From: a virus | Strand: one strand, 5' to 3' | Virus record (IMG/VR): IMGVR_UViG_3300012001_000108 | Coordinates: 1 to 25,032 of that record | DNA length: 25,032 bases | Shown: in pieces, positions 15,395 to 21,730 of the stretch | Layout of the letters: every line of letters begins with the position of its first letter | How positions within the stretch are numbered: the first letter of the stretch is position 1 | The notes under the pieces: generated by a model | Databases searched by the model: none | What the model was told of the DNA's origin: nothing | What the model saw: the letters and a program-made list of their open reading frames with translations, nothing else | Translations under genes and position numbers: made by a program

Positions 15395-15622
15395 TCACTG
15401 AAACAAAACTGAGTAGGGAGTCTTGCATGAGTGACAAATGTACTCGATGTAGTTACTACTTGGCGGTAAGTCTTTAAAGCTTGCCCCGTAAGCATTGCTG
15501 ACTAGGATATGACTACTATTAACTTTGAACAGCACACGCTTGCAGTTAAAGCAGTGGTACCAAGTCATCTCTACTGCTGGCTCCTGACTAGCGTAGATAT
15601 ACATCGTTATCATCATAGCCAT
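15395..15622 (-). CDS. Com-like zinc-finger protein (75 aa)
   Basis: A 75-residue protein with CFNC (residues 24-27) followed by KRVLFKV and, about 35 residues on, CHSC (63-66). The Mu Com zinc finger has the same plan: C..C, a LLFK-like strand, then a C-x-x-C pair preceded by an IEI-type strand (here YIEYIC). In phage Mu, Com binds mRNA and activates translation of the DNA-modification gene mom; no mom is seen here, so an RNA-binding role is inferred from the family only. The start ATG shares TAATG with the TerL stop. Confidence 0.6.
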   Translation of the reverse strand: MAMMITMYIYASQEPAVEMTWYHCFNCKRVLFKVNSSHILVSNAYGASFKDLPPSSNYIEYICHSCKTPYSVLFQ

Positions 15623-18920: not shown

Positions 18921-19080
18921 GCACATTATTCGTGATTGATATTACCAACTCAGCCCGACAGGACGCTATAGCTGGCGAACGACTCAGGGGCTTACAATAT
19001 CTGAGTAGATGTGATCGGTAAGTCACGAACAGCTTTAACTGGGGTGCGGTGCCTCTAAACAGCCGCCTTACGCCGAAGAT

Positions 19081-19095
19081 CGTTCTTTAACAATC
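19081..19095 (+). promoter_or_regulatory. boxA-like antitermination sequence
   Basis: cgttctttaacaatc closely matches the boxA element of E. coli rRNA leaders (core GCTCTTTAACA), which recruits NusB-NusE during antitermination. It reads in the plus direction, ~270 bases before the first rightward gene. A boxB hairpin directly downstream is not obvious, so the role is only suggested. Confidence 0.4.
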
Positions 19096-20287: not shown

Positions 20288-20445
20288 TGACTACCCTACA
20301 AGCAGACCTCCAGGTCTTAAAAGACACGACCGAAGCCTACAAGCTGTTGGTCGAACAAGCTAACTGTAACCACGCTTTTCTGTTCGACCATAATGCAAGT
20401 GGCCCGTTACAATGTGAATTGTGCGGACTGGAAATGGATTTCTAA
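20287..20445 (+). CDS. Zinc-ribbon protein (52 aa)
   Basis: A 52-residue protein. A helical N-terminus (LQADLQVLKDTTEAYKLLVE) is followed by CNH (Cys27, His29) and CELC (Cys43, Cys46), so a compact zinc ribbon closes the protein. Start and stop both overlap neighbouring genes as TAATG, implying coupled translation. The role is unknown; similar small zinc proteins fill this whole early block. Confidence 0.6.
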   Translation: MTTLQADLQVLKDTTEAYKLLVEQANCNHAFLFDHNASGPLQCELCGLEMDF

Positions 20446-20630
20446 TGGCTAACTTTACTATTGAAAAGAAAGTAACTGACATGTCTATCTACGGCATTAC
20501 TGGCGAGAACCAATGGGCCGGTGACGTAATTGTTAAGAGTAAGAACGGCATCAGTGTACATGGTACATACTTCCCTACTAAGGCACAGGCCGAAGCTTAC
20601 GTCGAACGCATGGCAAAGGAGATTGTGTAA
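20445..20630 (+). CDS. Small protein (61 aa)
   Basis: A 61-residue protein, MANFTIEKKVTDMSIYGITG, followed by DVIVKSKNGISVHGTYFPTK and a helical end (AQAEAYVERMAKEIV). An upstream in-frame ATG at 20421 would add eight residues, but the TAATG overlap at 20445 fixes the start. The pattern (small beta part, C-terminal helix) is common in phage early genes; no family recognised. Confidence 0.6.
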   Translation: MANFTIEKKVTDMSIYGITGENQWAGDVIVKSKNGISVHGTYFPTKAQAEAYVERMAKEIV

Positions 20631-20758
20631 TGTCTGAAGCACTAACCATCTGCAACATCTGCGGTGAGCCGACTTACCACAAAGGCCCTGACGCACTCGA
20701 CTACTGCCCTACCTGCGACATGATCGTTGAGGACAACACTCACGAGGTCATGGTATGA
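20630..20758 (+). CDS. Zinc-ribbon protein (42 aa)
   Basis: A 42-residue protein with CNIC (Cys8, Cys11) and CPTC (Cys26, Cys29), spaced like a zinc ribbon, then a short acidic tail. Start overlaps the previous stop (TAATG) and the end overlaps ATG 20755, so translation is coupled. A stand-alone zinc ribbon of unknown partner. Confidence 0.55.
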   Translation: MSEALTICNICGEPTYHKGPDALDYCPTCDMIVEDNTHEVMV

Positions 20759-20814
20759 ACCTACAACAAATCTGCGAAGAATACGCTAAAGGGTTTACCC
20801 GTATAGAACTCTAA
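20755..20814 (+). CDS. Possible 19-residue peptide
   Basis: A 19-codon frame (MNLQQICEEYAKGFTRIEL) beginning with ATGA overlap on the previous stop. It may be a short peptide or a remnant of a gene; nothing else supports it. Confidence 0.25.
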   Translation: MNLQQICEEYAKGFTRIEL

Positions 20815-20905
20815 CCAGCTGGTGCTCACTTGATATATAGGCACTCACCCGCCGATATCAAGGTAAAGGTAATAAGGTTAACACCGACCAGCCGTCCTGA
20901 ACATT
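20812..20905 (+). other. Structured stretch before the 24-bp-arm hairpin
   Basis: Non-coding sequence with a perfect 8-bp inverted repeat CTTGATAT/ATATCAAG (20829-20836, 20855-20862). Further outside it, GCTGG and CCAGC elements can also pair. The stretch lies between the last small gene and the long hairpin at 20912-21001, so the two may form one RNA. Confidence 0.4.
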
Positions 20906-20911
20906 AACAAC

Positions 20912-21001
20912 TTAAGTAAACATTCTGGCCGGTAAGTAATACTCGCAAGAGTTACAGCCCCGTCACTGGGTTACTGATTACCGGTCAAGATGTTTACTTA
21001 A
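20912..21001 (+). ncRNA. Structured RNA or regulatory hairpin, 24-bp arms around two inner hairpins
   Basis: Arms at 20912-20935 and 20978-21001 pair over 24 positions: 21 Watson-Crick, two G-U and one mismatch (12 perfect pairs at the outer end). The 42 bases between contain GTA-AT-ACTC-GCAA-GAGT-TAC (20936-20955), a hairpin with a GNRA-type loop, and AGCCC-CGTCACT-GGGTT (20956-20972), 5 bp with a 7-base loop. The whole forms a three-way junction. It ends ~18 bases before the ATG of the winged-helix-like gene, beside its Shine-Dalgarno. Small RNA, 5' leader control element or replication/processing site are possible. Confidence 0.55.
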
Positions 21002-21019
21002 ACGAGAGCAAAGGGAGTA

Positions 21020-21337
21020 ATGGCACAGCTAGATTTATTCGACACTACGCCAACACAAACAGCTATAAACAAAAGTTATGAAAATGCACCAATACAATGG
21101 ATAGTGAGAGCAGAAATGATTATTAGACAATTAGCAGTAAATGGACAAAGTTTCAATTCAGATCGAGTATGGTCTGAGCTAGAACAGCATGGCCTAACAG
21201 TCCGTGAGCCACGGGCCTTAGGCGCAATCATGCTACGGCTGGCTCGGGCTGGCGTAATCCGTTCGACGGGTCAGTATGTGAAGTCAGTTAGGAAAGAGGC
21301 GCATCGTCGCCCAATTTGCGTCTGGCAGGGTCTATAG
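21020..21337 (+). CDS. Winged-helix-like protein (105 aa)
   Basis: A 105-residue protein. After MAQLDLFD, residues ~25-90 form three helices and a beta hairpin typical of a winged helix: RAEMIIRQLAVNGQSFNSDR, VWSELEQHGL, LGAIMLRLARAGVIRSTGQY. The basic C-terminal (KSVRKEAHRRPICVW) resembles a family of phage early-region proteins. It has AAGGGAG before the start and a structured RNA (20912-21001) just upstream. Likely DNA-binding, probably in replication or control; partner unknown. Confidence 0.6.
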   Translation: MAQLDLFDTTPTQTAINKSYENAPIQWIVRAEMIIRQLAVNGQSFNSDRVWSELEQHGLTVREPRALGAIMLRLARAGVIRSTGQYVKSVRKEAHRRPICVWQGL

Positions 21338-21338
21338 C

Positions 21339-21593
21339 ATGACCTCTTCCCTAACCACCGGCAAGCGTCGCCGTCGATTTGATAAGTATCAGCTAATGCT
21401 TGGTGACGGTATGGCGGCAATGTCATCATCGTACATGAATAGTTTTGACGATTGTAACTTTGCCGCTTTGCAGAATAAACTAGACTACATAAATGAGGAG
21501 ATAGCTAAGATGGATAACAATCCAAATCGTGAAGACCAGGAATTTGAGATTTGCAAAGAGCAGATCATAGCTTTAGGGGAATTAGGGCTATGA
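21339..21593 (+). CDS. Small protein (84 aa)
   Basis: An 84-residue protein: basic N-terminus (TTGKRRRRFDKYQ), a Met/Ser-rich middle and an acidic helical end (LDYINEEIAKMDNNPNREDQ). It begins one base after the previous stop and ends in the ATGA overlap with the next gene. Family not recognised. Confidence 0.55.
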   Translation: MTSSLTTGKRRRRFDKYQLMLGDGMAAMSSSYMNSFDDCNFAALQNKLDYINEEIAKMDNNPNREDQEFEICKEQIIALGELGL

Positions 21594-21730
21594 CCTCACC
21601 AGAAAAACTAAAAGACATACCCGTAGCCCTAATTCAAACTATCGGGGTTAGCCTACTAATGTTAGGGGAGGTGCTGCTGGGTACGACAATTCCAGAGTCG
21701 GCTAGATGGATGGAGGAACACCATGAGTAA
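21590..21730 (+). CDS. Small hydrophobic protein (46 aa)
   Basis: A 46-residue protein, starting by ATGA overlap at 21590, with a hydrophobic centre (VALIQTIGVSLLMLGEVLL) that could be a membrane helix and an acidic tail (RWMEEHHE). It pairs with another small membrane protein that starts inside its 3' end (21723). Possibly a holin-like or envelope accessory pair; unproved. Confidence 0.5.
   Translation: MTSPEKLKDIPVALIQTIGVSLLMLGEVLLGTTIPESARWMEEHHE

Follow-up and report, generated by a model that had tools for sequence, protein, structure and literature searches.

Introduction

RNase III processing sites sit between the early genes of phage T7. The element described here, 90 bases at positions 20912–21001 of a phage DNA of 25,032 nucleotides (IMG/VR record IMGVR_UViG_3300012001_000108, positions 1 to 25,032; in the following, the window is this whole stretch), resembles these sites in that it is intergenic, lies in an early operon and places a long imperfect duplex a short way ahead of a gene whose Shine-Dalgarno sequence (SD) is left open. 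Unlike the T7 sites, it possesses a branched three-way-junction cap and it comes from a different phage group and host; its cleavage is something that we infer.

Phage phi29 does without a TerS/TerL pair, while the phage of the window has both. A phi29-type packaging RNA was consequently rejected as the identity of the element, given the presence of these two genes and the absence of an Rfam match. What the element does have in common with the prohead/packaging RNA of phi29-type phages, a phage RNA with a three-way junction (PMC5340915), is the junction itself. The large and ornate phage RNAs GOLLD and ROOL, which have no assigned function (PMC12286853), are similar in size to noncoding regions of about 800 nt that we found in two sister phages, while the leader in the window measures about 205 nt. 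In contrast to GOLLD and ROOL, neither the window nor these sister regions match any Rfam model. Our search for literature on RNA-level control in Saccharibacteria phages returned no paper.

Results and Discussion

The window is a piece of a tailed phage, composed of a leftward packaging and structural block that encodes TerS (GP3_package), TerL (Terminase_3) and a portal-like protein, and of a rightward early block. The major capsid protein shares 55% identity with that of the TM7 phage DolZOral124_53_65, and therefore the host is likely, as judged from this sequence relationship, to be found among the Saccharibacteria. These are ultra-small bacteria that are difficult to culture. Among 384 genomes from the class to which G031 belongs, searches with the capsid protein and with a noncoding model termed R2 (see below) revealed no near prophage, and the DNA of positions 20400–21700 showed no similarity to named phages. 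A gene for RNase III is present in three of the four bacterial assemblies in which relatives of the phage's proteins occur. Between the portal and TerL genes we also noticed a 75-aa ORF with two CxxC pairs (15395–15622, minus strand), the DNA of which is 59–75% conserved in many relatives.

A sequence-only reading of the window had proposed that the 90 bases form a three-way junction of the RNA type, in which two 24-base arms pair at 23 positions, G·U included, and enclose a GNRA-like hairpin and a second hairpin of 5 bp with a 7-base loop. The minimum-energy fold of the 90-mer bears this out. The 5′ arm TTAAGTAAACATTCTGGCCGGTAA (20912–20935, plus strand) and the 3′ arm TTACCGGTCAAGATGTTTACTTAA (20978–21001, plus strand), both of which are also recovered by the inverted-repeat search, form a closing stem of 12 bp, one C·A mismatch and 10 bp; 23 of the 24 arm positions can pair when the open terminal U-A pair is counted, two of them as G·U. 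On the same strand, hairpin A (20936–20955) carries a GCAA loop at 20945–20948, which is a true GNRA tetraloop, and hairpin B (20956–20972) has 5 bp and a 7-nt loop (20961–20967), exactly as had been read. The fold also beats random expectation, as claimed: its energy of −37.5 kcal/mol corresponds to a z-score of −6.17 against 200 dinucleotide shuffles (mean −17.8, SD 3.2), none of which folded equally well. Additionally, the arms are the longest and best short-range inverted repeat of the 25-kb window. In raw energy, four 90-nt windows of higher GC content elsewhere in the 25 kb outfold the element; after correction for composition it is the most structured 100-nt window of the 25 kb (z −6.4). 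Our z-score survey covered the 25-kb window and ten relatives, and since windows of other related phages reach −7 to −9, the strength of the element is high, not unique. The plus strand folds better than the minus strand (−37.5 versus −32.7 kcal/mol), and of the three arm positions that are not Watson-Crick pairs on the plus strand, two are G·U. The 90-base structure is real and strong, with the plus strand favoured.

The gap that contains the element is noncoding, measures about 205 nt and is the largest between rightward genes of the window. On the upstream side the gap is bordered by a possible 19-aa ORF (20755–20814, plus strand), proposed from the sequence and a strain comparison, whose ATG overlaps the stop of a 42-aa ORF (20630–20758); on the downstream side follows the gene for a 105-aa protein (21020–21337, plus strand). 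No ORF of at least 40 aa lies over 20912–21001, in keeping with the intergenic position assigned earlier. The upstream part of the leader (20815–20911, plus strand) shows weaker predicted folding, with a candidate fold made of a GCTGGT/ACCAGC stem and an inner hairpin CTTGATAT/ATATCAAG. At its 3′ end the structure stops 8 nt before the Shine-Dalgarno-like sequence AAAGGGAG (21010–21017, plus strand) and 18 nt before the start codon of the 105-aa gene, so that it indeed adjoins the SD of the predicted winged-helix-like gene. A translational operator that hides the SD, which had been offered as one role, is nevertheless unsupported, because the SD lies beyond the end of the structure and its core stays mostly unpaired in the predicted leader fold.

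Several known identities were rejected. No run of T follows the stem on either strand, confirming the earlier remark that a U-tract is missing, and the element is absent from the terminator-like sites, which argues against an intrinsic terminator. ARAGORN detects no tRNA or tmRNA, and the neighbouring ORFs show no reverse transcriptase match of the kind that would point to a retron ncRNA. Rfam searches at gathering and relaxed thresholds, performed on the window, the leader, the divergent region and the two sister regions, gave no credible match to the element: nothing reached the gathering threshold, and the best relaxed matches were eukaryotic miRNA models with E of at least 0.17. In the divergent region itself, a noncoding stretch of the window (18942–19093, plus strand) is 70% identical to L194:10559–10710 of a related phage (E 2e-15). 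In three short helices it shows compensatory changes that affect both sides, five in all, and it has no Rfam match; on this comparative evidence it is likely a conserved structured RNA.

When we searched 2.9 million viral contigs with exact-arm and looser patterns, we recovered two near-identical strains only, and an arm search in 84,980 bacterial and archaeal genomes gave no match. The idea of a host-factor mimic is thus unsupported, since there is neither a copy in these genomes nor an Rfam relative. A second copy was found neither in the window nor in the phage's own strains; around 24972 part of an arm is matched, apparently by chance, with no similar structure about it. In strain L005 the sequence of the element is identical. 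Over the 9.4 kb that align with the window, ends excluded, L005 differs by substitution at three positions only (20796, 20811 and 20815). They lie a short distance upstream of the element, and two of the three are synonymous in the possible 19-aa ORF. Their clustering within 20 bases (20796–20815) perhaps marks a small recombination tract.

The element is unique in sequence, and its place is similar to that of long hairpins that relatives of the phage carry. Terminase and capsid proteins were used as bait to gather about 760 kb of DNA from related phages, in which inverted repeats that score at least 19 and span at most 120 nt number four, namely those of the window, L011, G016 and W01. All four are intergenic, while intergenic DNA makes up about 10% of the total, and they end 18, 22, 25 and 80 nt, respectively, before a predicted start. 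L017 adds a fifth strong inverted repeat, with a longer loop, and here too a gene follows directly. A DNA operator is a possible alternative for the repeat of W01, which sits in a divergent region. The sequences of the relatives' strong hairpins are unrelated to that of the element and to each other. The pattern is weaker in terminase relatives that are more distant, where about half of the repeats of this kind fall entirely between genes: among the further ones that we checked, those of L035, L064 and L049 are intergenic and upstream of genes, and those of L042, L048, L068 and L078 overlap predicted genes. A palindromic TTCTATATAGAA, perhaps an operator, is common to two distant relatives, where it lies inside intergenic inverted repeats (L139:14117–14173 and G017:36323–36385).

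Because shape and place recur without sequence, we prefer the reading that the element is a cis-acting mRNA processing or stability hairpin of the early operon, similar to an RNase III site; we hold it tentatively, at somewhat less than an even chance. That the sequences differ among the relatives' hairpins fits a site that is read by its shape. The strength and strand preference of the fold, its GNRA loop, and its place in the largest gap between rightward genes with the SD outside the duplex speak for this reading as well, and the RNase III genes in three of the four assemblies would suit it. As an RNase III site would be, the element is placed between rightward ORFs (20630–20758 with the 19-aa ORF, and 21020–21337), whose co-transcription is assumed, and the imperfect duplex of 12 bp, mismatch and 10 bp spans about two helical turns. 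The 90 bases would be the structured portion of a leader that lies between genes of the rightward early operon in a Saccharibacteria-type phage. Transcription would run through the element, and the plus-strand transcript would adopt the long imperfect duplex with its three-way-junction cap. Since about two helical turns is the length that RNase III cuts, we propose that the operon mRNA is split at the element. Such a cut would leave a protected 3′ end on the upstream mRNA, while the winged-helix gene would keep a short leader in which the SD is open; an uncut duplex would still shield the mRNA from exonucleases; in either form an effect on expression would be expected. Against this reading stands that a three-way junction is unnecessary for an RNase III site and that the DNA strands fold well too, so that a role as DNA may apply.

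The main rival reading, possible though doubtful and close to the small regulatory RNA proposed earlier, is that the element is instead a domain of a trans-acting phage ncRNA, related to long-stem elements within the roughly 800-nt noncoding regions of the sister phages G005 and G007. These regions fold far better than shuffled sequences (z −6.1 and −15.4, 20 shuffles each), and their long-stem elements (L188:11168–11252 in G005 and L191:10229–10309 in G007) carry GGCGGTAAG on the 5′ side (GGCGGTAAG...CTTGCCG). Between the two, 17 of 17 pairs are kept, and in four of them both partners have changed; these counts make no use of a MAFFT alignment of four long-stem elements, in which the arms were misaligned. 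The 5′ arm in the window, CTGGCCGGTAAGTA, resembles CTGGCGGTAAGTA of G007 (p 0.001) and also the arm of G005 (p 0.005), and a similar element with GGTGGTAAG is found in L011 (L011:3798–3905), 22 nt before a gene and thus, like that of the window, just upstream of one. All three share with our element a long closing stem, GGTAAG on the 5′ side and small inner hairpins. They differ from it in the 3′ arms and in the inner hairpins, and those of G005 and G007 are embedded in the 800-nt structured regions, whereas the leader of the window is merely about 205 nt long. The 3′ arm of the window shows no resemblance to those of G005 and G007 (p 0.94–0.97), and the shared motif was spotted post hoc. Moreover, a covariance model of the G005 and G007 elements missed the window element in a large search. 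With filters off, the same model gave it 13.5 bits, the top score of 7 kb, of which long hairpins generally earn much. A pattern scan for further elements of this type returned 42 matches, about the estimated chance number; matches with a stem scoring at least 15 occurred only on the G005 and G007 contigs, the next best scoring 11. By sequence, kinship of the window element with those of G005 and G007 is no more than suggestive. That it would be a small representative of a fast-evolving and so far undescribed class of structured ncRNAs of Saccharibacteria-type phages, with GGUAAG 5′ in a long closing stem and larger, multi-domain members of about 800 nt, appears to us more doubtful still.

The relatives contain a further conserved structured noncoding core, GAACGTAG..TAAAA.CCGTG..GTTAG..GCCCACC, which lies just upstream of small genes near TerS (L191:9975–10773 in G007, L204:12537–12654 on the minus strand, L150:1215–1343, L232:300–428 and L194:8136–8273 on the minus strand). 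The separate R2 model of this core, trained on G007, G014, L150 and L232, independently recovered it in G009 (E 3e-9); in the window it is absent. In G007 the core is part of the 800-nt region with z −15.4, which has no Rfam match. In G009 it is directly adjoined by two tRNA-Met genes predicted by ARAGORN (L194:8295–8474, minus strand), one of which is supported by Rfam.

Control of the downstream gene was considered as well. The 105-aa protein matches phrog_27658, a PHROG without assigned function, and its homologues are found in Streptomyces phages and in many uncultured phages. The predicted structure is winged-helix-like (pLDDT 79, good confidence over most of the length), with weak matches to PadR-type regulators and the replication terminator protein (best E 0.014). 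A leader that controls translation of this gene, through binding of a protein, perhaps its own product, or through a change of fold, would suit the adjacent position and the predicted nucleic-acid-binding fold of the product. We regard it as unlikely, given that SD and start codon are outside the structure, that no alternative fold was identified, and that no comparable leader was found upstream of the homologues in Streptomyces and IMG/VR phages.

We judge it just as unlikely that the 90 bases function as DNA, that is as an operator or a replication or recombination site in the form of an inverted repeat or cruciform. Folded as DNA, both strands give good structures (z −5.7 and −4.8), which leaves the strand evidence for RNA over DNA only modest, and a gene of the DNA-binding type is adjacent. 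The GNRA loop and the excess of G·U over A·C positions on the plus strand modestly favour RNA, and a DNA site of this kind lacks a second copy in the window or the phage's own strains. A replication element, named earlier among the possible roles, is conceivable, the neighbouring gene being the one thing that points to it. A chance inverted repeat without function is quite improbable. In its favour, an equally good repeat turns up somewhere in 2 of 400 dinucleotide shuffles of the full 25 kb, and the known homologues are near-identical with none divergent, but the intergenic place beside a start codon, the GNRA loop and the similar pre-gene hairpins of relatives speak against it.

Conclusion

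On present evidence the element is ordinary in kind, and uncommon in its host group and its shape. If the long leader hairpins are mRNA processing or stability sites, the reading that we prefer, they show how such phages separate gene expression within one operon. If they are ncRNA domains, they would point to a new phage RNA family beside GOLLD and ROOL.
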